A stretch of DNA of 36,936 nt from Bacteroidales bacterium. GTDB taxonomy: Bacteria > Bacteroidota > Bacteroidia > Bacteroidales > ML635J-15. The stretch covers positions 1-36,936 of the forward strand of contig JAQIBY010000184.1 of NCBI GenBank assembly GCA_027858835.1. The letters run 5' to 3'. Every line of letters starts with the position of its first letter. The stretch's first letter is position 1. A program made the translations under genes and the position numbers. Of this stretch, positions 25,030 through 36,936 are shown one piece after another. The notes beneath the pieces are model-generated. The model was not told the origin of the DNA. It ran no database searches and saw nothing but the letters and a program-made list of their open reading frames with translations.

Positions 25030-26398
25030 AAAACAAATCAAACATATCACAAGTTACTCTTGGTCATATCGAATTCTCAGCATTTTCGTGGATTTAATGC
25101 ATACGCTGTTTTACAGAAAAATTGTGGTTGAAGGAAAAGAAAATATTCCCAAAGATGCATCGGTTATTTTTGCACCGAATCATCAAAATGCACTGATGGA
25201 TCCGCTTGCAATTACTTTTTCGGCCAGGCAACAAGTGGTGTTTTTGGCAAGAGGAGACATTTTTCAAATTCCACTACTCCCCGCTTTTTTTCGTTGGTTG
25301 AAAATTCTGCCGGTCTTTCGTATCCGAAACGGGATTAGCAGCTTAAAAGGCAATGATGACAGTTTTAATTCTGCAATGCAAGTGCTGGAAAAAAAACGAC
25401 CAATCTGCTTGTTTCCCGAAGCAGCACACAGCAACAAGCGACACCTGCTTAGCTTTAAAAAAGGAATTCCCCGCATTGCATTTTTGTCCGAAGAAAAACA
25501 CAATTTTCAATTGGGTGTACAAATTGTCCCGGTAGGAATTTTCTACAGTAAATACAACACTTTCCGCAGCATTTTACATGTGCGTTACGGAAAACCCATC
25601 AATGTGTCAGATTACAAAGCGGATTATGAGGAGAATCCGAATCAGGCAATGCTTAAGCTTCGAGACGACATGAAAGAAGCAACGAAACCACTTGTCATTC
25701 ACATAAATACCCTCGATTTTTACGATTTATACGAATCAGTACGCACCATGTATTTTAAAAACATGGCAAAACGGCTAAAATTTGACAAGCTCAATCAAAA
25801 TAATCGGTTTATTGCCGATCAGATGACGATAAAAATGCTGGATAATTTTGCCGAAAAGTATCCGGAAGAGATGGGAATTTTGAATCAAAAGATGAAGGAT
25901 TACACCGAGTTACGAATAAAATATGGACTCAAAAATCAGTCAATTGCTAAAGAAAAAATCAATGCGTTTCGATTAATCTGGAATGCTTTTTTACTTGTGA
26001 TTTTTTCCCCTGTATTTATTTACGGATTAATTAATAATTTACTGCCGTATGTCACTCCAAAACTCCTAGTCTTAAAGATAAAAGACAAGCAATTCCATTC
26101 ATCCGTGAAATTTGTTTGGGCATTATTTGTCTTGCCGATTTTATATTTGGCTCAGGCAGGCATATTCTGGGCAATTACCGATAATTTTTTGTGGGCGGTT
26201 TTGTATCTAATTTCCATTGGGATTTTTGGATTGTTGGCACAATTGTACGCCGAGTGGCTTGCACTGATTCGCAGAGACTTAGGCTTCTATCGAATCAAAA
26301 AAGCGAAACCCAAAGTTTACCGAAAAATCAAATCTTTACATGCCGATATTTTGCATTATCTGGATAGAATTCAAACGCCTGAAGTTGAGATTGATTAA
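25022..26398 (+). CDS. PlsC-type 1-acylglycerol-3-phosphate acyltransferase domain protein
   Basis: FAPNHQNALMDPLAI (NHxxxxD-like), LFPEAAHSNKR; start ATG 25022 overlaps the upstream stop (ORF track start 24974). Confidence 0.85.
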   Translation: MNKKQIKHITSYSWSYRILSIFVDLMHTLFYRKIVVEGKENIPKDASVIFAPNHQNALMDPLAITFSARQQVVFLARGDIFQIPLLPAFFRWLKILPVFRIRNGISSLKGNDDSFNSAMQVLEKKRPICLFPEAAHSNKRHLLSFKKGIPRIAFLSEEKHNFQLGVQIVPVGIFYSKYNTFRSILHVRYGKPINVSDYKADYEENPNQAMLKLRDDMKEATKPLVIHINTLDFYDLYESVRTMYFKNMAKRLKFDKLNQNNRFIADQMTIKMLDNFAEKYPEEMGILNQKMKDYTELRIKYGLKNQSIAKEKINAFRLIWNAFLLVIFSPVFIYGLINNLLPYVTPKLLVLKIKDKQFHSSVKFVWALFVLPILYLAQAGIFWAITDNFLWAVLYLISIGIFGLLAQLYAEWLALIRRDLGFYRIKKAKPKVYRKIKSLHADILHYLDRIQTPEVEID

Positions 26399-26403
26399 AG
26401 ACT

Positions 26404-26488
26404 GAAGCGGGCTACAAGCCTTGAACCTGCCTGCCTGCAGGCAGGTTTACTGCAATCTCGGATATTATTTTCATACATTGTTAGTGGC
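26404..26488 (-). repeat. Cassette boundary A: right half of an attC-like element, carrying a 20-nt palindrome insertion
   Basis: gaagcgggctacaagccttgaa-[CCTGCCTGCCTGCAGGCAGG]-tttactgcaatctcggaTATTATTTTCATAC-ATT-GTTAGTGGC; same backbone as boundary B at 36881..36936. Confidence 0.8.
26426..26445. repeat. 20-nt GC-rich palindromic insertion, copy 1
   Basis: CCTGCCTGCCTGCAGGCAGG, exactly absent at the matching position of boundary B (ttgaa|tttactgc). Confidence 0.85.
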
Positions 26489-26490
26489 TT

Positions 26491-26835
26491 TTAGCCTTTC
26501 ATTTTTTTCTTGCTTTTTCTCTTTTTCGGTTTAGGTTCGGGAAGTTCTTTAACAGTAATCCTTACTAAATTGCTAATCCAGTTTCGATCTTCCAATTTAT
26601 CTTCAATAAGGAAACTCGGTTTAGCTCCAGTATATGGTGGTGCTTCAACAACATCTTTTATAAATGACCTTCCAGATTCGGTTGGTTTTATAAATAGTTT
26701 GTTATCGCATATGAGTGCAAAAATTTTCCTGTCAGAGAATATTCCATATTCTCCAAACATCCCTTTAACAGTGATTTCTCCTGCATTTTCAATTTGGTCA
26801 ACAACGAAATCTACAAACTCCCTATCTGATGCCAT
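26491..26835 (-). CDS. TfoX/Sxy N-terminal domain protein
   Basis: FVDFVVDQIENAGEITVKGMFGEYGIFSDRKIFALICDNKLFIKP. Confidence 0.85.
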   Translation of the reverse strand: MASDREFVDFVVDQIENAGEITVKGMFGEYGIFSDRKIFALICDNKLFIKPTESGRSFIKDVVEAPPYTGAKPSFLIEDKLEDRNWISNLVRITVKELPEPKPKKRKSKKKMKG

Positions 26836-26846
26836 TTTTTTAATTA

Positions 26847-27317
26847 TTATTTCAACTTAAATACAGGATTATAAATCAGTCCAATAACATTTCCCCAAGG
26901 GTCTTTAACAGATGCTACTATAATTGGTTCACCTACGCTATGTGGCTTTTCATTTTCTATAGCACCTGACTCAAGAAAGTGTTTATAAACTTTTTCAATT
27001 TCATTCACTCCCCAATAAGTAAGTACACTTTCGGGTTTATCTGTTGTTGGATTCTCCTCTGGAAGAAGTCCAAGTTCATAACCGCCAATATTAAATCCGA
27101 CATAGAAAGGTTCGTCAAAGTATGGTTCAGTTCCAAATGCTTTTGCGTACCATTTTTTTGCTTTATGAATGTCCTCTACTTTGTAGATAGTCGTTCTTAA
27201 TCCGAGTATGCTTTGTTTTTCCATATTATTAATACGATCAGTTTGTTCAGTGTTCTGTTGTGAAAATCCGGTTTGAAAACCAAAAATTAGAATTCCAATA
27301 AATAATATGCTTTTCAT
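26847..27317 (-). CDS. VOC/glyoxalase-like domain protein with N-terminal signal sequence
   Basis: GLRTTIYKVEDIHKAKKWYAKAFGTEPYFDEPFYVGFNIGGYELGLLPEE...VKDPWGNVIGLIYNP; MKSILFIGILIFGFQTGFSQ leader. Confidence 0.85.
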   Translation of the reverse strand: MKSILFIGILIFGFQTGFSQQNTEQTDRINNMEKQSILGLRTTIYKVEDIHKAKKWYAKAFGTEPYFDEPFYVGFNIGGYELGLLPEENPTTDKPESVLTYWGVNEIEKVYKHFLESGAIENEKPHSVGEPIIVASVKDPWGNVIGLIYNPVFKLK

Positions 27318-27680
27318 ATTTAGTTCATTTTAATTGCCACTAAATCATTTACATACACAAACCTCTCACAAAAGTCTGTGCTCTAAAACTATATTCGTAG
27401 GTTAAGCATTTGCAAACGAGTTAGCTTGTGGTTTCTTGCGTAAGATAGCATAAATTATGCAATATGCGTGAGGTTTTGTGAAGATTTTTGGATGCTTTGT
27501 TTGCATTGCACAGAGTGCATGCTTTCTATTGCAGAAAACGGGCAGGAAATTTTGAGCGTATTAAATGGTTTCGTTTAACGGATTTGTTTATGAAACGTTT
27601 GGTATTTCGGAGCACTTTTCCGTCAAATCGCCACAAAGCTTATTAGATTAAACACCCTCCTCTCTTGAAATTAGCACTAT

Positions 27681-27712
27681 CCGCTCAATGATTTATACAC
27701 ATTGTTATAGCC
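27681..27712 (-). repeat. Cassette boundary C: attC-like arm plus cassette end (HK unit)
   Basis: CCGCTCAATGATTTATACAC-ATT-GTTATAGCC aligned with CCGCTATTATTTTTATAC-ATT-GTTGTACAC at 33984..34013. Confidence 0.7.
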
Positions 27713-27755
27713 ATGTGCTTTATTTTCAGTCGTATAATTGCCTGTTTAGTATTAA

Positions 27756-30700
27756 TTATTTATTGAAATACTTTTGCATCAATACCAGTAATTCATCTTT
27801 CTTAATTGGTTTTGAAATATAATCGTTGCATCCCACTTCAATTGCTTTTTCTCTGTCACCTGTGAGGGCAAAAGCAGTTTGGGCAATTATAATCACATCT
27901 TTATTAAACTCGCGGATTTTGTGGGTGGCTTCATATCCATTCATTCCGGGCATTTGAATGTCCATTAGCACTAAATCAATATCAGGATGTTGGCGGCAAA
28001 TTTCGATGGCTTCTAATCCTGTAGTTACTTTAAGTATTTCTTTGCTAAAATTCTCCAGTTCTATTAAAATTAACATTTCAGAAGTTTCATCGTCTTCAGC
28101 AATTAAAACTTTCAAGCCCGAAATTTCAGGAGTTATTGGTTTTTCTTCACTTTCATCCATAAAAGCAGTAGAGATATTGATTTTCTCTTTTGAATCTAAA
28201 TTGCAGGGAAGGGTAAAAAAGAAGGTTGAGCCCATAGCTTCTTCGCTTTCCACCCAAATTTTACCGCCTAACATTTCCATGTAAGCTCTCGAAATGGCCA
28301 AACCTAGACCCGCACCTTGTCTTGCCATTTTATCGATAATATCCGCCTGAATAAAACGCTCAAAAATAGCTTCCTGTCTTTCTTTTGGAATTCCTATTCC
28401 TGTATCTTTCACATAAAATTCAAATTCTTCTCCTTTATAAACATATCCAAACTCTATTGTTCCTGAATCGGTATATTTTATTGCATTTTTAACCAGATTA
28501 GAAATAATTCCATAAAACTTTTCACTATCTGTTTTAATCATTGCTTCTTTTTCGGGTAATGCACAATTAAAGGATAGATTGAGATTTTTATTATCGGCAT
28601 CAAGTATTAATGAATCGTAAACAAATTGCAACTGATTGTTTATATTCGTTTCTGAAAGATTAATGTCGACTATACCCGATTCTATCTTGGAAATACTCAC
28701 AATATCATTTATAATGTTAAGCATACGAGCACCACTTTTCTCGATAATCTGAATGTACTTTTGTTGTTGTTCGCCAGACAATCCAGGTTCTTTCAGTAGG
28801 CCCGCAAAACCAAGAATACCATTCATAGGCGTACGTATTTCGTGACTCATATTGGCAAGAAATGCAGATTTCAGGCGGTCGCTTTCTTCGGCTTTTTCTT
28901 TAGCTTTTAAAAGTTCTAATTCAATTTCTTTGCGTTCGGTAATATCTTCTTTTACTGCTAAATAATTGGTAATTTCGCCTGTTTCATTAACAATTGGGGA
29001 GATAGTGGCAAATTCCCAATAGAGTTCCCCGTTTTTCTTTTTATTGTGAAACTCGCCACTCCATATTTTTTTTAATAGAATCATATCCCACATTTCTTTA
29101 TACGTTTCTTTAGGCATATCCCCAGATTGTAAAATCCTTGGATTTTTCCCTTTTACTTCGTTAAAGGAATAACCGGTTAGTTCAATAAATTCAGGGTTTA
29201 CATATTCTATGTTCCCTTCTAAATCAGCAATGATAATGGAAACAGGACTTTGCTCAACAGCTTGTGACAGCTTCAATATTTCACTTTCTGCTCGTTTACG
29301 TTCGGTGATGTCATGGGAAACAAGAAGTATGGTTTCAGAAGATAAAGGAGTAAGACTTGCAGAAAACCAAATCGTTTCATTTTCTATTTCCAATGTATAG
29401 TCCATTGTAACCAATTGCTGCATAGCTACACATTGGTTGATATAATCTTGAAAGAAATCGGCTTGTTTTTTGGGGAAAACATCCTGTACTGTCTTTCCTA
29501 ATAATTCCTCGAAAGGTATATAAAGCAAAGATGGATTGGTAGGCGCAATTTCAAGATAACGCCCATTTTTGTCTAAAACAATAATTACATTATGCATGGC
29601 TGAAAAAATAGCCCGCAATTTTGCTTCTGATGCTTTTAATTCTTCTTCAGCACGTTTTCGTTTTGTAACATCTTGTGATTTTACGGCTACACCAACGATA
29701 TTCCCACTTGTATCTTTTATTGGACTGTGTTTTACCTCAAAATACTGCCTCGAGAGTGATTCTTCTCCTGAAAAGGAGTTGTCAGTTATACTTTCCCCAG
29801 CTAATGCACGGTCAATATTATTTTTAGCTATTTCACGATCATTTTTAACCAGCATGTAATCCAATAAACTTTTGCCTAATTCGATATCTGCATCATAAAT
29901 GACTTTCATCACTGCAGCATGATTTTTATTAAAACTTGTATAACAGTAGTTTTTGTCGAGCGAAAAAATTAAATCATTGGTACTTTCGATAATTCCCAAA
30001 AGGATATCATATTGATTTGACAGTTTTTCTTTAGCGAGACGGGTAGCTGTAACTTCTCTCTGAATTCCAAAATGTCCGGTAATTCTTTTTTGCGAATCGT
30101 AAAGGCAAATATAATCGCCTTCAACAATCATGTCTGTCCCGTCGAATTTTTTTTCGTGTGTATCAATATGCAGTTGACCATTATCAAAAAAATCTTTCCA
30201 AACCTTCCGGCCATGTTGTATATCGTGTGTAAATAAATCGTTGGGTGTAAGCCCGATGAATTGTTCTTTGGAAGCACCATACTGTTGAAGCATGGCACTG
30301 TTGATTTTAGTTACTCGCTGATGTTTGAAAACGTAATCGAGTGTTTTTTCTTTATCAATGCTACTGTTCCAAACTACGGGTTCATCAAGTATCATAAAAA
30401 AGAACCCGTCTAAGGACTGGGCTAAGAAAAGTTCAAGTCGTTCTTCGCTTTGTTTTAATTTTTCTGTAGCATGCTTACTTTCGGTGATGTCGCAAATAAT
30501 ATGGACAATCTCGGTTATTCGCCCCATGTTATCTAATATTGGGTCAATCGTAATCTCGAACCATTTTTCGTTAAATAATAATTGCATGGTTTCCCTTTGT
30601 TTGCTCAATTGCATTTTCACAAATGGGCATCCTTTGATACGGCAGTCGGTTTGATGAACAATTTCGTGGCAATGTTTACCTAACAGCTCAGCTTCATTCT

Positions 30701-31340
30701 TTTGAAACAGAATGTATGAAGCTTTGTTGGCCTGTAGTATGACTCCATTAGTATCCAATAGAAAAATAGCATCCTTCATTCCGTCAAAAGTAGTTTGCCA
30801 TTTTGCATTTGTCAATAATAATTGTTCTTGAGCCAACTTGATGGACTGTTCGTTGGCCTTGCTTTCGGTAATATCTTCAACACTCGACCAGATGAATTTT
30901 TCACCCATTCGCTCAATAATTGAGCCCTGTAACCTAACGGGGATGAGTTGTCCGTTTTTATGAATGTATTCCTTTTCGTATGGTCCGTAAGTGCCTTTTA
31001 AACGAAGAGCTTCCAATTGTTGTTTTTCTTGCTCCGCATATTTTTCAGGGGTAATATCCCAATAGCTAAGTTGCAAGGTATCTTCAATGGTTCGTCCAAT
31101 TATGTTAGCATAAGCTTGGTTTACATCGATCAATTTTCCGTCCATGGAGGTCAGCGCAAGTCCGATAACTGATTGTTTAAAAAGCATGCGGTTATAAGCC
31201 TCGCCTTCTGTTTGCTTTGTTGCAATCAGGCTGCGCTCTTTGCTTTCTTTGTTGTATAATGCCTGTAAAGCATTGTACTCATTTTGCAAATGCTCTAACT
31301 CATTTAAGAGTTCTTTTTTGGTTTTATTCTGATTGTCCAT
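27756..31340 (-). CDS. Hybrid sensor histidine kinase with about six PAS domains and a C-terminal receiver
   Basis: Repeated PAS segments, each ending in a DITE/DVTK-like motif; HisKA ANMSHEIRTPMNGILGF; N box NLVKNAIKYTD; G boxes DTGIGIP and GAGLGLAISR; receiver LVLMDIQMPGMNGYE...KPI. Confidence 0.95.
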   Translation of the reverse strand: MDNQNKTKKELLNELEHLQNEYNALQALYNKESKERSLIATKQTEGEAYNRMLFKQSVIGLALTSMDGKLIDVNQAYANIIGRTIEDTLQLSYWDITPEKYAEQEKQQLEALRLKGTYGPYEKEYIHKNGQLIPVRLQGSIIERMGEKFIWSSVEDITESKANEQSIKLAQEQLLLTNAKWQTTFDGMKDAIFLLDTNGVILQANKASYILFQKNEAELLGKHCHEIVHQTDCRIKGCPFVKMQLSKQRETMQLLFNEKWFEITIDPILDNMGRITEIVHIICDITESKHATEKLKQSEERLELFLAQSLDGFFFMILDEPVVWNSSIDKEKTLDYVFKHQRVTKINSAMLQQYGASKEQFIGLTPNDLFTHDIQHGRKVWKDFFDNGQLHIDTHEKKFDGTDMIVEGDYICLYDSQKRITGHFGIQREVTATRLAKEKLSNQYDILLGIIESTNDLIFSLDKNYCYTSFNKNHAAVMKVIYDADIELGKSLLDYMLVKNDREIAKNNIDRALAGESITDNSFSGEESLSRQYFEVKHSPIKDTSGNIVGVAVKSQDVTKRKRAEEELKASEAKLRAIFSAMHNVIIVLDKNGRYLEIAPTNPSLLYIPFEELLGKTVQDVFPKKQADFFQDYINQCVAMQQLVTMDYTLEIENETIWFSASLTPLSSETILLVSHDITERKRAESEILKLSQAVEQSPVSIIIADLEGNIEYVNPEFIELTGYSFNEVKGKNPRILQSGDMPKETYKEMWDMILLKKIWSGEFHNKKKNGELYWEFATISPIVNETGEITNYLAVKEDITERKEIELELLKAKEKAEESDRLKSAFLANMSHEIRTPMNGILGFAGLLKEPGLSGEQQQKYIQIIEKSGARMLNIINDIVSISKIESGIVDINLSETNINNQLQFVYDSLILDADNKNLNLSFNCALPEKEAMIKTDSEKFYGIISNLVKNAIKYTDSGTIEFGYVYKGEEFEFYVKDTGIGIPKERQEAIFERFIQADIIDKMARQGAGLGLAISRAYMEMLGGKIWVESEEAMGSTFFFTLPCNLDSKEKINISTAFMDESEEKPITPEISGLKVLIAEDDETSEMLILIELENFSKEILKVTTGLEAIEICRQHPDIDLVLMDIQMPGMNGYEATHKIREFNKDVIIIAQTAFALTGDREKAIEVGCNDYISKPIKKDELLVLMQKYFNK

Positions 31341-31386
31341 AGCAAAATTTGTTTAAATAATTAAATTTCATGTCGCTCTTAGCATT

Positions 31387-31395
31387 GGCTATAAC
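31387..31395 (-). repeat. Outer end of the HK cassette (partner of boundary C)
   Basis: GGCTATAAC is the exact reverse complement of GTTATAGCC at 27704..27712 (10 nt with the flanking T/A). Confidence 0.6.
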
Positions 31396-31587
31396 TCGTT
31401 TATCACCCAATAATTTATAAGCTTATTTCACCCAGGAGTGAAAAAACCCCCATGTTTTGTGCAGGCTTATACACAAAACTAATCTTTTTTAAATAAATCA
31501 GCATACAGACTCTGAATGTTCTGTAAACTTTTTCTGTTATTTGTTTTCACTATTCTATCAATACTGAATTGTAAAAAACAGCCGGTT

Positions 31588-31644
31588 AAACCCGACATTT
31601 ATGTCGGGGTTTTTAAGGCAAAAAACACAAAGGGCTTTAGCCCT
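31588..31644. repeat. Two short palindromes downstream of the DUF4143 gene; possible terminator or dispersed palindromic repeat
   Basis: AAACCCGACAT-tt-ATGTCGGGGTTT (31588..31612) and AGGGCT-tt-AGCCCT (31631..31644). Confidence 0.65.
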
Positions 31645-31679
31645 GATATGATTTCATAAAAAATATTAGGCACTGGCAA

Positions 31680-32801
31680 TTATTCAATTATTACAAATTC
31701 CCTAAAATTATCTTTATCAATTACTATACTCTTTGCATTATAGGTTTCAGTAAAAGTTTTTGGTAATTTTTGATTTTTCTTTTTTTCCCATTTAAATTCA
31801 TAACCAAATATTTCACCTTTATTTTCTTCTACAAAATCGACTTCTTGTTGTTGTTTTGTTCTCCAAAAATAAGTGTGTGCAAGGCTTTGTTTATATTCAA
31901 TTTGCTTAATCCGTTCTGAAATCAGAAAATTTTCCCAAAGAGCACCTTTGTCAGTCCTGAGTTCAAGTGGATTGAAATTTCCAATAACCATATTTCTGAT
32001 GCCATTGTCATAGAAATATATTTTTTTATTAGTTTTTATTTCGTTTCTAACGTTTCGACTAAAACTACTCAACTTAAAAATGATATATCCTTTTTGTAAG
32101 ATATCAATGTATCTGCTAATTGTGTTTTTATCAACATTTACAATTTGAGCAAGTTCAGAGTAGTTTACTTCATTACCTATTTGGAGTGCAAGAGCCTGAA
32201 CCAATTTTTCAAGCACTTCGGGTTTTCTAATGTCTGCATATGATAGAATATCTTTATATAAATAGCTATTCACTAAATTTCGTAAGATACTTATTTCGTC
32301 GCCTACATTGTTTAAAACATCTGGGTAAAATCCGTAAAGTAATCTGTTTTCTAAATTTTGCTCAGAGTACAGATATCCATGGTGGTTTTCATATTCTTCC
32401 CATGAAATTGGGAACAATTGATATTCCCATTTTCGTCCAGTTAAAGGTTCATTTATTTTATTTGATAAATCAAAAGAAGATGAACCACTTGTAAATAACT
32501 GAACATCTTTAAATCTATCCGTAATAATTTTCATTGTTAGCCAAATTCCCTCAATTCTTTGTGCTTCATCGATAAAAATAAACTTATATTTTCCCAAAAT
32601 GGTTCTAATTTGTTCAGTGTTGGGCTCTGTCAACAAAGTTCTAGTTATAGGGTCGTCTCCGTCAAGAAGTAAATAATCCTTTGTTTCAAGGATTGACTCA
32701 ATCAGAGTTGTTTTTCCCACTTGTCGAGGTCCAATAACAACAATAGCTTTTCCTGAATCAATTCTCTTCTTTATTCTATCGTTTATAATTCTTGAATACA
32801 T
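31680..32801 (-). CDS. AAA ATPase with DUF4143 C-terminal domain
   Basis: Walker A VIGPRQVGKTTLIE, Walker B KFIFIDEAQRI, TSGSSSFDLSNKINEPLTGRKWEYQLFPISWEEY, C-terminal FWRTKQQQEVDFVEE. Confidence 0.93.
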   Translation of the reverse strand: MYSRIINDRIKKRIDSGKAIVVIGPRQVGKTTLIESILETKDYLLLDGDDPITRTLLTEPNTEQIRTILGKYKFIFIDEAQRIEGIWLTMKIITDRFKDVQLFTSGSSSFDLSNKINEPLTGRKWEYQLFPISWEEYENHHGYLYSEQNLENRLLYGFYPDVLNNVGDEISILRNLVNSYLYKDILSYADIRKPEVLEKLVQALALQIGNEVNYSELAQIVNVDKNTISRYIDILQKGYIIFKLSSFSRNVRNEIKTNKKIYFYDNGIRNMVIGNFNPLELRTDKGALWENFLISERIKQIEYKQSLAHTYFWRTKQQQEVDFVEENKGEIFGYEFKWEKKKNQKLPKTFTETYNAKSIVIDKDNFREFVIIE

Positions 32802-32809
32802 TTTTCTTG

Positions 32810-32817
32810 CAAAGATA
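32810..32817 (-). promoter_or_regulatory. -7 element TATCTTTG immediately upstream of the DUF4143 ATPase
   Basis: Reverse complement of caaagata; 8 nt from the start codon, implying a very short leader. Confidence 0.5.
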
Positions 32818-32938
32818 TAACTTCTAATTATTTAATTCACTAAAAGTTATATTATTTAGTGATTACGCGCTTTTTTTGCTTGTGCCAAACGTTTGATGGA
32901 ATGGTGTCGTACGGGATTCCGAAGCGACTTTCTATCAG

Positions 32939-32958
32939 CCTGCCTGCCGGCAGGCAGG
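32939..32958. repeat. 20-nt perfect GC-rich palindrome, copy 2
   Basis: CCTGCCTGCCGGCAGGCAGG followed by TTTAC, as in copy 1 at 26426..26445 (one central base differs). Confidence 0.85.
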
Positions 32959-33198
32959 TTTACACCAACTTTTTTTACGAGCTAAAAACGCTCGCAAACC
33001 TCTGAAACCCGCATGAACCATGCCATGTGTTGAACTAAATCCACCACAGGCGGATAGCTTGTTTTACCCAAAGATAATCATCTTTTTCAAAAACTGTTGC
33101 GTATATCATAATGTAAGCTGCCTTTTAGCAAATAATCAAGCTGCAAAACACACAAAACTGTCTTAAAATGCATAAGCCGGCAAAAGGATTTGGTTCAA

Positions 33199-33266
33199 CC
33201 AGCCTGTCCAGGCTACATTCCGGGAGGAATACTCGCTGGTTTCACGAAATGTCGGGACAAGGCTGG
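33199..33266. repeat. GC-rich compound stem-loop
   Basis: CCAGCCTGTCC (33199..33209) pairs with GGACAAGGCTGG (33255..33266, one bulge); internal hairpin ATTCC-ggga-GGAAT; competing AACCAGC/GCTGGTT pairing. Confidence 0.55.
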
Positions 33267-33271
33267 CGCAG

Positions 33272-33297
33272 CGCTCATATTCCTATATATTAGCGGC
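33272..33297 (-). repeat. Cassette boundary E (degenerate attC-like arm, RDD unit)
   Basis: CGCTCATATTCCTATATATTAGCGGC aligns with CGCTATTATTTTTATACATTGTTAGTGGC with a 3-nt loss at ATT|GTT; overlaps the RDD stop codon. Confidence 0.55.
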
Positions 33298-33784
33298 TGA
33301 TTTTATCTTCGTCCGTTTTCAAGTTTATTTGTTCTTCAGCATATTGCTCAAAGTCGGATGTGTCAACAACAACTGTCTTTGCCAACATATCTCCAATACG
33401 TTGATGTTTTTCTGAATTTTTAATTGCAATAATTGCAGGTATTCCATAAAAGAAAAAGTCAATTAGGTCAAGCAAGTGTCTTTTAAATGCTTGACTAAAA
33501 CTAATTTCTTTTCTGTCGAGTGTTAAAACTTTTAGTTCAAATGCCTGATGACCAAATGTTCCACCGTAAATTGCTTCTATGATTACAAAGTACAAAAAAT
33601 AAAAAACAGGAACCACTAAAGCAAGAAGTCCGTGAATAGATTTTCCACCTTTACCATTGTCTTCTCCGCAGAACATGATATATAAAAAAGTCAATAGTAT
33701 GAAAATAGCATAGTCAATAAGTGTAGCAAAAATCCTTTTCTTGAGATTTGATTTAAATCTTAAAGTTATAGAATCATCTGACAT
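33290..33784 (-). CDS. RDD family membrane protein
   Basis: LKKRIFATLIDYAIFILLTFLYIMF, GTFGHQAFELKVLTLDRKEISFSQAFKRHLLDLIDFFFYGIPAI. Confidence 0.92.
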   Translation of the reverse strand: MSDDSITLRFKSNLKKRIFATLIDYAIFILLTFLYIMFCGEDNGKGGKSIHGLLALVVPVFYFLYFVIIEAIYGGTFGHQAFELKVLTLDRKEISFSQAFKRHLLDLIDFFFYGIPAIIAIKNSEKHQRIGDMLAKTVVVDTSDFEQYAEEQINLKTDEDKISR

Positions 33785-33877
33785 AAAAAGTAATTTTAAG
33801 TTTCTATTATTAATGTTTTTCTTGCTTTAATTTCGTTTCTTTTTTGCCAATTCTGTTTCCGAGTTTCAACAAAATTT

Positions 33878-34013
33878 GCCGCTAACGGTCTCGTATAAGA
33901 ATAGTAGCGGATTATTACACACTAACTTTTCGGTTAAACACAGACCTTTTTTATTATTATCTACTTTTGTTTTAGCGATTAAACCGCTATTATTTTTATA
34001 CATTGTTGTACAC
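33878..34013 (-). repeat. Cassette boundary D: complete attC-like element (136 bp) between the PHP-SMC and RDD units
   Basis: GCCGCTAAC-ggtctc-GTATAAGAATAGTAGCGG (33893..33910) / 73-nt loop / CCGCTATTATTTTTATAC (33984..34001)-ATT-GTTGTACAC. Arms pair at 18/18 positions on the + strand (16 Watson-Crick, 2 G.T). Confidence 0.85.
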
Positions 34014-34116
34014 TGGCTTTCTTCCATTCTGCGTTGGCTAAAGACATACTCTTTTGCAATTTTTGGTTGAGCTTTGGCTGGTGCAAACTGCAAATGTGTA
34101 TGGCTTTGTGCGTTGG

Positions 34117-36699
34117 CTATTCCATTGCAATCGCGTATTTCCTTTCTCTTTGTTTGAAAGCTTCATTTCCGCCTTCAAGTATCTCGCAAACGTGTTCTTT
34201 AATACCTTTTGAATCAAGAGTAATCTTAACAGAGTCATCAAATTCTCGTGTATTTTCCAAACTACCAGAAGCATATTGAAATTTGATGCCGTTCTTGTTG
34301 GGTGAATCATTACCATTTTGATTGGCAACAATAACTAATTCTGAATCCGAACCGACTACAATATTCGGATTATGAGTTACAAGTATTATTTGACGTTCTT
34401 TTTTCTTTTTAACTAAGTCCTTGTAAATAGCTCGGTTGTCTAAATCATCTTCAGGTTGGTCAATTAAAATCGGACAATCTTTATTACTAAAATCAAGCAA
34501 AAGCAGAAGAACAACAAAAGCCTTTTTACCTTCTGACATCTGATTGAAAATGTCATCATAAACTATTTCGTATGATATTTCAAAGAAGTTACTAGCCATC
34601 AACTTTTGACATAGTGAGTTGTGACTGTATTGGCTTTTAAGTGTAAGGTTTTTTTCTAAGAGTTTATCAAATAGCTGATTAACAGATGTGAAATAATTTT
34701 CGTTAGTTTCTAACTCAACTCCAACAATGTTTTGTCCTTGATGACTTTGTTGATTGATACTGCTGTATAACAAATCCTTATATGCACGTTTATTTAGTTT
34801 AGCAGATGCTTTGATTTCGAGTTTATCTCTTGAAACACTTAAGTCTTCCTTAAAAGTCTCAATTTTGTTTAAATATTCTCGGTGGGCATCCTTGATAGAG
34901 GTTTTGAAAGATTCAATTTGCCCTTTTAGCTTGTCAACTTCGCCTTTTATTATAAGTATGTCAGCAAGTTTGTCTTTTTGAATTTTTAACTTGCTCTCTA
35001 CTTCACGATACTGAGTATTATTCTGAAAGGCTTCTAGACCTTTAATATAAATAGGGTTTTTATCTATTACATCAATTGCTTTTTCATTTGCCTTTCTGGC
35101 AGATGAGTTGTTAGCTTGTATTTTATTTATTTCCGCTTCCCATTCTTGTTGAAATCTTGCTCTTAATTCATCAAATTTTCCTTTGATTTCCTTGCGATTA
35201 TTTTCAGAGATTGAAACCAGTTCAAAATCAATTTCTTTGTTGATGAAGAACTTTTCTTTAAGATTTTCAATTCTTGCTATTTCATCTCCTAAAAACTGAT
35301 TAGTTTTCGATAGTGAATCTTTTTGTGTCCTTAACTTGGAATAATTTTCCAAATCATCTTCTGATATTTGTGATTTGCTTTTCAGCTCTGTTAACTCTTT
35401 TGTGAGTTTTTCAATTTCAGTTTCAATTCCTTTTCTATCTCCCTTTTCCTTTAAGAGATTACGCCTTTTGACCAAATCTTCTTGTAACTGAAAAATCTTA
35501 TTAACCTTATTAGTTATATCAGTGTTGTTTTCGCTACTAAAGGTTTCATAGTTTGAAATTAGTTGATTTTTAGAACTGTCTTGTTTTATAATGCTTTCTA
35601 TGAGATTATCAAGTTCTTTGTTCTTATTTCTTGCTAACGTGTACATATAGCTTTGTGGAAAGTATTCAATGTCTCTTTTGTCATTGACAGTTCCATCTTT
35701 CCACGTAACAACTAAGTTGGACACGACCTCATTTACAAAGTTTATGTATTCTTCATTTCCATATTTTACTTCTTTATCACTATTAAGCTTCTTTGCTATT
35801 GCACCTAATAGAATTGATTTACCAGTTGAACGGCCACCGATAATTGAATTTAAGTTTTGGTTAAAGTGAATGTTTTGTGAATGGAAGTCGCTATGTGATA
35901 TTTTGACTGAATCGATTACTTGATATCCTGCTTTTTCGTGCGGTTTTAATGCTTGAATTCTTACTCTTTGTTTTGCTTCATAAACAACTTGTTTCAAACC
36001 TTCAAATGTTTTATCAGCTTTAATCCAACAATTTTCTTTTAAAATATATTTATTAATATTATGATTATCAGAGCATATAATCATTGGAATATGCTTTTTA
36101 ATAGCAGGAAATACAACGTTTAAGTAGCCTTCTTTATCTTCGGGTTTGCCCAGTTCGTAAAAATCAATACTTTTAGCAACAAGCGTTTTCTGAGCTTCAC
36201 CGTGTGGTATAGAATGAGTTATGTTTTCAACTGTATTTGACTTCTCACCAGCGTGAATAGTCGTAAGACCACCTAACTCTTTGATAAGTTCAATTGTTGT
36301 TTCGAGATTACAGAAAACTTCATTAATTTTTGCTCCTTCGCCATTAATTTTTGAGATATTAGTTTTGTTCTCAATTTGTCCCCAGATATGAGTTAAGTTG
36401 CAATTTTCGGCAAAGATTCCAATAAAGTGTATAGGTGCTCGACCTCTTGAGTCTGACAAAAATTCGATTCCTGGTAGAACGGTTATTCCCTTAGCTTTTC
36501 CTAAACTTTGAAGTTCAGTAATTCTTTCAATGTCAATTACGTGATGGTCTGTAATAGCCACTACAGAAATGTCATTTGCAAAAAGAGTATCTATGATTTC
36601 TTGATTAGTCACAGATTTATCTCCGTAATCATATGATGAAGGTGTATGAAAATGTAAATCCCATTTTCTCCACTGTGAACCTTTTTCTATTTTTTCCAT
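34117..36699 (-). CDS. PHP-domain plus SMC/RecN-like ATPase (putative nuclease-ATPase, defence-like)
   Basis: PHP metal motifs DLHFHTP, ITDHH, GIEFL, TIHAGE, CSDNHN; Walker A GGRSTGKS; long coiled coil; MSEGKKAFVVLLLLL signature-like segment; Walker B CPILIDQPEDDLDN; switch His VTHNPN. Confidence 0.9.
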   Translation of the reverse strand: MEKIEKGSQWRKWDLHFHTPSSYDYGDKSVTNQEIIDTLFANDISVVAITDHHVIDIERITELQSLGKAKGITVLPGIEFLSDSRGRAPIHFIGIFAENCNLTHIWGQIENKTNISKINGEGAKINEVFCNLETTIELIKELGGLTTIHAGEKSNTVENITHSIPHGEAQKTLVAKSIDFYELGKPEDKEGYLNVVFPAIKKHIPMIICSDNHNINKYILKENCWIKADKTFEGLKQVVYEAKQRVRIQALKPHEKAGYQVIDSVKISHSDFHSQNIHFNQNLNSIIGGRSTGKSILLGAIAKKLNSDKEVKYGNEEYINFVNEVVSNLVVTWKDGTVNDKRDIEYFPQSYMYTLARNKNKELDNLIESIIKQDSSKNQLISNYETFSSENNTDITNKVNKIFQLQEDLVKRRNLLKEKGDRKGIETEIEKLTKELTELKSKSQISEDDLENYSKLRTQKDSLSKTNQFLGDEIARIENLKEKFFINKEIDFELVSISENNRKEIKGKFDELRARFQQEWEAEINKIQANNSSARKANEKAIDVIDKNPIYIKGLEAFQNNTQYREVESKLKIQKDKLADILIIKGEVDKLKGQIESFKTSIKDAHREYLNKIETFKEDLSVSRDKLEIKASAKLNKRAYKDLLYSSINQQSHQGQNIVGVELETNENYFTSVNQLFDKLLEKNLTLKSQYSHNSLCQKLMASNFFEISYEIVYDDIFNQMSEGKKAFVVLLLLLDFSNKDCPILIDQPEDDLDNRAIYKDLVKKKKERQIILVTHNPNIVVGSDSELVIVANQNGNDSPNKNGIKFQYASGSLENTREFDDSVKITLDSKGIKEHVCEILEGGNEAFKQRERKYAIAME

Positions 36700-36726
36700 T
36701 TTTATTCAATTCGAGCGTTGGTTAAA

Positions 36727-36786
36727 ACAGCACATTTTGTTTTTTTTAGCGTTGGCTTGTGTCTCGGAAAAAACCAAATGTGCTGT
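36727..36786. repeat. Long hairpin in the 5' region of the PHP-SMC gene
   Basis: ACAGCACATTTTGTTTTTT (36727..) pairs with GGAAAAAACCAAATGTGCTGT (36766..36786); terminal 11 bp perfect; loop contains GCGTTGGCT. Confidence 0.75.
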
Positions 36787-36811
36787 TTGTGCTGTTGGCT
36801 TTTCAGAGCTT

Positions 36812-36936
36812 GTGTACAACGTTAAGTATAAGAATAGTAGCCGACTGCGTGGCTCTTTACTGTCAAGTTACAAAAAATTTGAAGCGGGCTACAACCCTTG
36901 AATTTACTGCTATTTCGACTATTATTTTTATACATT
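36812..36936 (-). repeat. Cassette boundary B: attC-like element truncated by the window end
   Basis: GTGTACAAC-gttaa-GTATAAGAATAGTAGCCGA (36826..36844) / 70-nt loop / TCGACTATTATTTTTATAC (36915..36933)-ATT[end]. Confidence 0.82.

Follow-up and report, generated by a model that had tools for sequence, protein, structure and literature searches.

The closest described systems are integrons, in which IntI recombines gene cassettes at attC hairpins and at an attI site. Hairpin recombination by IntI requires the I2 helix, the acquisition of which is held to have created single-strand recombination, and evolutionary intermediates are lacking (PMC7790495). According to IntegronFinder 2.0, complete integrons within the Bacteroidetes proper occur only in Salinibacter (PMC9024848). 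Here, we analyze contig JAQIBY010000184.1 of a Bacteroidales bacterium (assembly GCA_027858835.1), a stretch of 36,936 nucleotides referred to below as the window, in which a first-pass annotation made from the sequence alone had proposed an integron-like array. We conclude that a decaying integron-like cassette array, served by a tyrosine recombinase of the family found intact on contig C116 of the same genome (the C116 family), is the best explanation of this locus (probability about 0.9). By every criterion that sequence analysis can address, the system works like an integron; it is not an IntI integron, because the IntI domain and the canonical GTTRRRY box were both tested for and are both absent.

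Hairpin sites and their strand

Sites were searched with two covariance models, R1 (built from five sites) and R2 (built from 85 sites). R2 detects four full sites in the window, the best at E 3e-24, and the next best candidate there has an E value of 0.18. Covariance searches of this and other genomes had been suggested by the first-pass annotation, and they proved productive: R1 gives 30 matches at E<0.1 within the window's own genome, including 27 at <1e-3, and 205 of the 393 genomes examined from the order carry sites by this model (no more than nine candidates were scored in each). The recurrence is not due to chance: the 16-mer GTATAAGAATAGTAGC alone has five exact copies in this 3.6-Mb genome, plus one with a single mismatch; several lie near contig ends, as expected of a repeat that breaks assemblies. 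Orientation is clear (130 bits versus 29 bits on the opposite strand for one site), and a dense array in another genome (G266 contig 17, L099/L100) carries approximately 13 sites within 21 kb, every one on the same strand. A motif confined to this locus, always beside the same genes, or belonging to a transposon had been named as contrary to the integron-like reading; none of these was seen.

The typical site is approximately 122 nt long, with a 19-bp stem and a loop of approximately 71 nt, flanked by an R'' box (ending in AAC) and an R' box (G^TTR, the caret marking the cut point). Among 84 distinct sites, 93.8% of stem cells are paired, compared to 59.3% after shuffling and at most 54% when the arms are slid, and 485 changes affect both sides of a pair. 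A second set of 124 distinct sites gives 92.0% versus 57.6% shuffled, with 737 both-side changes. Both alignments were fitted to a model of the same structure, which favors pairing, but the values for the slid and shuffled controls lie far below. A G.T pair occupies one stem position in 83 of the 84 sites of the first set and in 119 of the 124 of the second, with a single G-C overall, whereas the neighboring pairs vary freely; on the other strand it reads A.C. We looked for extrahelical bases, which select the bottom strand in integrons, and found no conserved bulge in the modeled 19-bp stem, which has this near-invariant G.T pair instead. The G.T-bearing strand is opposite to the cassette genes and corresponds to the bottom strand used in integrons, where attC sites are likewise imperfect palindromes that form a hairpin on one strand. 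Folded as single-stranded DNA, site D of the window (Table 1) reaches -14.6 kcal/mol, with z -3.15 on the + strand versus -1.64 on the - strand; sites on contig C113 differ little between strands. The choice of strand is probably set by the G.T pair.

Some variant arrangements were also recorded. In arrays of genome G045 (L110 10753-11179, L111 5638-9051), an attC-bearing segment of approximately 400 bp, 88 to 89% identical between copies, recurs several times and ends in CATAGCACTGCG^, constituting a site subtype with a longer conserved part. At one contig end (C179; L021 14760-15881), a lone attC half-site is followed by approximately 1 kb of tandem repeats (AACCGCTTTACCCC.., with a unit of a few hundred base pairs) running to the end of the contig. 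The palindromic repeat CCTGCCTGCxxGCAGGCAGGTTTAC occupies the loops of two window sites, A (26426-26455) and the fourth full site (32939-32968), as if a repetitive extragenic palindrome (REP)-like element prefers them.

Cassette ends, attI, and natural insertions

Cassette ends were compared over 58 intervals between neighboring sites. When the nine bases that follow GTT are set against the R'' of their own interval, an average of 5.9 are complementary; the mean is 3.0 with the R'' of other intervals and 3.6 with that of the same hairpin in the array, and none of 10,000 permutations reached the observed value. Such complementarity is what results when circles are excised by cuts at G^TT and then reinserted, and the same cut and complementarity characterize integrons. 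On contig C113, for example, a RelA/SpoT-domain gene lies between two sites in an interval that starts with TTAACGGC and ends with GCCGTTAAC plus a site. All 50 cassette starts examined carry GTTR, and GTTRRRY fits only 4 of them; the R' box is thus GTTRNNN, and the first-pass annotation was right that the end boxes depart from the canonical consensus.

A scan of genome contigs yielded 80 loci with close relatives of the recombinase, mainly in Flavobacterium but also in Pedobacter, Chryseobacterium, Lutibacter, Cyclobacteriaceae, and Bacteroidales. R2 sites could be placed clearly relative to the integrase in 197 cases: 193 are downstream and 4 upstream (5.1 versus 0.06 per 10 kb), despite more upstream sequence. 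Of all 198 sites, 197 are on one strand. At least one site occurs in 41 of the 48 loci with 1.5 kb or more downstream, and the median spacing between sites is 702 nt. Because some of these loci supplied sites to R2, detection there is favored, but position and strand played no part in model building. Strong integrase relatives also co-occur with sites across genomes (32/40 versus 173/353, p 1e-4).

These data bear on whether the array could be an ordinary IntI integron, with an integrase that the assembly does not contain. True IntI genes do exceed the NCBIfam cut-off in 105 of 396 genomes of the phylum. However, only one of these is in the window's class and none is in its order, and the best matches in the window's own genome are sub-threshold and Xer-like. 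The sites adjoin C116-type integrases (30 control IntI loci gave one R2 match), and the canonical box seldom fits; we regard this explanation as very improbable.

Approximately 100 nt past the integrase stop codon is a hairpin-like stretch ending in TATA(A/T)AC(G/A/T)AG^TT, which we interpret as attI. A simple pattern places this junction in 72 of the 80 loci, although a few picks are visibly wrong. The bases after its G match the R'' of the first attC at 5.7 of 7 positions, compared to 2.96 when shuffled (0 of 5,000 as high). Transcription of the integrase gene thus runs toward attI and the cassettes. Cassettes are inserted at an attI beside the integrase, but at the 3' end of its gene, whereas intI is usually divergent from its cassettes.

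Natural insertions are evident at the same junction. Four Flavobacterium loci (L189, L193, L197, and L198) are 97 to 99% identical across 600 nt up to AAGTT and unrelated immediately after it. The post-junction identities of 0.70 to 0.78 were set aside as similarity, because unrelated stretches score 0.73 with the same aligner. Two Lutibacter loci (L190/L192) are 99% identical up to the junction and then unrelated, and plasmids of Chryseobacterium sp. SNU WT5 and C. oryzae are approximately 90 to 100% identical up to ACAAG^TT and unrelated beyond; on the SNU WT5 plasmid, six sites follow the integrase. A 594-bp cassette is common to L193 and L198, from two species (96% identical), with AACG^TT at both ends and different neighbors.

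It is extremely unlikely that the sites are miniature transposons, REP-like repeats, or terminators that lie between genes by chance. They are palindromic, repeated, and intergenic, as such elements would be, but the end complementarity is specific to each cassette, orientation is strict relative to one recombinase, and breakpoints coincide with attI and with the two ends of an entire cassette. No Rfam family matches the sites at E 0.1. There is no transposase family among the window cassette genes (target duplications were not separately searched), and the moving unit is a gene plus a site, not the hairpin alone.

On a Chryseobacterium plasmid (L259 18299-22081), an IS110-family transposase and a group II intron reverse transcriptase adjoin attC-like sites (19508 and 22576). 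IS110-like elements and group II introns target attC hairpins in classical integrons.

A recombinase family without I2

The window's own genome encodes one intact candidate integrase, on contig C116 (L023, 9460-10785; 441 amino acids), with a homologous attI after the gene. It matches the XerA-type family NF040815 of NCBIfam at 226 bits (cut-off 220) and reaches 211.9 bits against the integron integrase model TIGR02249, below the cut-off of 265 because positions 181-238 are absent. The IntI insert of approximately 40 amino acids (I2) is cleanly absent from every family member aligned with IntI proteins of the same phylum. The first-pass annotation had suggested looking near an array end for a tyrosine recombinase with an extra domain: a recombinase is found at array ends, but the IntI-specific domain is not there. 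In a tree of 43 sequences, the family forms one clade (97/99) and IntI another (100/100), although outgroups are few and long branched, which leaves any sister relationship tentative. The catalytic R, K, H-x-x-R, H, and Y residues are retained, and the catalytic half is closest, in both structure and sequence, to XerA-type proteins (NF040815; PDB 5hxy and 4a8e).

The N-terminal domain comprises approximately 55 amino acids with the pattern W-S..W-H-x-P, and its predicted fold is strand-strand-helix-strand-strand-helix (predicted local distance difference test score, 84). Pfam offers no clear family for it (weak DUF5710), and the top Foldseek match, the SMARCAL1 HARP domain, is not significant (E 0.67) and serves as a lead only. 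Our guess is that this domain could read the hairpin in place of I2. The C116 integrase appears to have two copies of it, the second at residues ~83 to 130 (SKWNGNAYRWELPNY). Phage records contain distant integrases only. Plasmids of Acinetobacter and Rhizobium commonly carry relatives that lack the N-terminal domain (48% identical); one of these is named TnpF, and on one plasmid (L260) a recombinase lies beside IS91 transposases.

The data establish the sites with their folding potential and covariation, the cut point, the cassettes as units, the adjacency of attI, and the natural insertions, whereas we infer that a recombinase of the C116 family is the catalyst and that the substrate is a single strand, namely, the bottom strand. 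Each cassette consists of one gene, or rarely two, followed by the attC of approximately 122 nt, the bottom strand of which (+ in the window) can fold into the stem and loop described above. The recombinase would cut between G and TT, and cassettes would be excised as circles, restoring full R''/R' complementarity. The circles could then be inserted at attI, just 3' of the recombinase's own gene, or at another attC.

Alternatively, the recombinase may move the array as double-stranded DNA at a short Xer-like core, the hairpin being a terminator or relic. The absence of I2 and the likeness to XerA favor this option, as Xer enzymes use double-stranded sites (PMC7790495). Yet the stem sequence drifts with covariation of its two sides, the loop keeps its length, and the G.T pair is almost always kept, all of which would be needless for a double-stranded core, and a GTT core beside AAC is not long enough for an Xer site with two arms. 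We consider recombination of this kind unlikely.

Several points do weigh against a C116-served cassette array. The family lacks I2, although IntI biology deems this helix needed (PMC7790495). The co-occurrence of integrases and sites is imperfect, with both orphan arrays and integrases without sites, and the intact integrase of this genome, on its short contig, has no detectable attC in the 0.7 kb downstream. We lean toward a second integron lineage of non-IntI origin, where a XerA-like recombinase lacking I2 would recombine a folded single strand by means of its own N-terminal domain, with the fixed G.T mismatch as the strand mark. If so, hairpin recombination of gene cassettes arose, or works, without the IntI domain. 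A recombinase without I2 beside hairpin sites supplies a missing relative of IntI, and the question of I2 becomes directly testable.

The window array compared with known systems

Features of the window are compiled in Table 1. Read along the minus strand, cassettes 1 to 3 are followed by the integrase remnant, attI, cassette 4, an attC, cassette 5, a half attC, and the chromosome. The boundaries are real cassette ends, because the first bases of each cassette complement its own last R'' box.

Table 1. Sites, cassettes, and integrase-related features of the window (caret, cut point)
Feature	Position	Strand	Details
attC-like site B	36818..36936	+	R2 101.8 bits, E 3e-24; contig ends inside site; folding strand +; attC of next cassette upstream; left box AAC at 36818; junction TTAACG^TTGTACAC
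Cassette 1	33885..36819	-	PHP/SMC-like ATPase gene 34117-36699, 860 amino acids; PADLOC Ppl, 88 bits; start TTGTACAC (36819) complementary to own R'' GTGTACAAC (34013)
attC-like site D	33884..34007	+	Full hairpin, E 5e-21 (R2)
Cassette 2	33282..33885	-	RDD-family membrane protein 33290-33784, PF06271; start TTAGCGGC (33885); R'' GCCGCTAA (33297); degenerate site E at end
Site E	33297-33290 (R'' box)		Strongly degenerate cassette end; R'' box GCCGCTAA
Fourth full attC-like site	32888..33031	+	E 9e-7 (R2); enlarged loop
Cassette 3	31662..32889	-	AAA_14/DUF4143 ATPase 31680-32801; PF13635; PADLOC PDC-S01, 543 bits; junction AACG^TTTGGCAC at 32889 versus GTGCC.AA at 31673; decayed R'' GTGCCTAAT at 31673
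Integrase remnant	31479..31545	-	Last ~20 codons, ending RKSLQNIQSLYADLFKKD and stop; homologous to C-terminus of intact C116 integrase, ending EKSLQKIQSPYDDLFKND and stop
attI-like site	31393..31478	-	..GGGTGATAAACGAG^TTATAGCC; cut point between 31395 and 31394; homologous to C116 attI, ..GGGGGATAAACGAG^TTACAGCC
Cassette 4, inserted at attI	27705..31394	-	Hybrid histidine kinase 27756-31340, 1194 amino acids; HisKA/HATPase/PAS/REC; start TTATAGCC (31394); own R'' GGCTATAAC (27712)
attC-like site C, full-length	27577..27706	+	E 5e-17 (R2); left arm AACGGATTTGTTTATGAAACG at 27577
Cassette 5	26480..27343	-	Glyoxalase-fold protein 26847-27317 (PF00903) and TfoX_N protein 26491-26835 (PF04993); start TTAGTGGC (27343); own R'' GCCACTAAC (26488)
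attC-like half site A	26404..26482	+	Array end beside chromosomal acyltransferase gene; loop sequence GAAGCGGGCTACAA..TTTACTGC common to A and B

All five places at which the first-pass annotation had seen a boundary motif (A to E) are present, and E is degenerate, as it stated. D and B are indeed hairpins with both arms, B being cut by the contig end, but so is C, the left arm of which had been overlooked, as had the fourth full site, the attI-like site, and the recombinase remnant. Site A has lost its left half against a chromosomal gene ending at 26398. The annotation's view of the locus as a cluster of attC sites without a nearby integrase (CALIN) does not strictly hold, given the degraded integrase codons and attI-like site inside the window and the intact integrase with attI on another contig (C116). 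Aligned as DNA to C116, this segment (minus strand 31545-31393, ..KSLQNIQSLYADLFKKD and stop) scores 182 versus a shuffle maximum of 69, and the histidine kinase cassette begins exactly at its attI. Since an attI-like site and C-terminal integrase codons are both present, the window is a decayed complete system and not just loose sites: a sedentary integron-like array that is decaying, in which the body of the integrase has been lost and cassettes now stand upstream in its place. The broader integron-like interpretation of the annotation is supported by all the computational tests applied, with many copies parting unrelated open reading frames in a single orientation, recombinases at array ends, attI, end complementarity, and natural insertion breakpoints.

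The system appears to be a widespread means of single-gene capture and shuffling in Bacteroidota, including Flavobacterium, with a different recombinase. Sites occur in about half of the sampled genomes of the order, in many Flavobacterium, and on Chryseobacterium plasmids, and standard tools are expected to miss them because the integrase profile and the attC box both differ. We found no description of it in the open-access full-text literature (preprints were outside this scope), although absence is not proof. It would add a major gene exchange platform to a dominant phylum, with defense-like cassettes: the DUF4143 ATPase of cassette 3 matches a candidate defense family (PDC-S01), and the RelA/SpoT-domain protein of C113 matches PDC-S33 in PADLOC (60 bits).

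Among known systems, integrons, including sedentary chromosomal integrons and CALIN, share the most with this one: hairpin attC sites with R''/R' boxes and a G^TT cut, single-gene cassettes in one orientation, attI at the integrase, long arrays, integrase-less remnants, and plasmid-borne copies. In contrast to integrons, the recombinase has no IntI domain, branches apart from IntI in its own clade, carries a distinct N-terminal domain, and is encoded by a gene read toward attI; the R' box is GTTRNNN and not GTTRRRY, the G.T pair is near invariant, and the site has a fixed length of approximately 122 nt with a conserved loop. XerA-type recombinases differ in that XerA acts in chromosome dimer resolution at a double-stranded site, with no cassette array and no KWS..WHxPD N-terminal domain. 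The IS91-associated tyrosine recombinases (TnpF-like, on Acinetobacter plasmids) are 48% identical over the catalytic part, but the match includes no N-terminal domain, and a tyrosine recombinase on plasmid L260 is annotated beside an IS91-family transposase.

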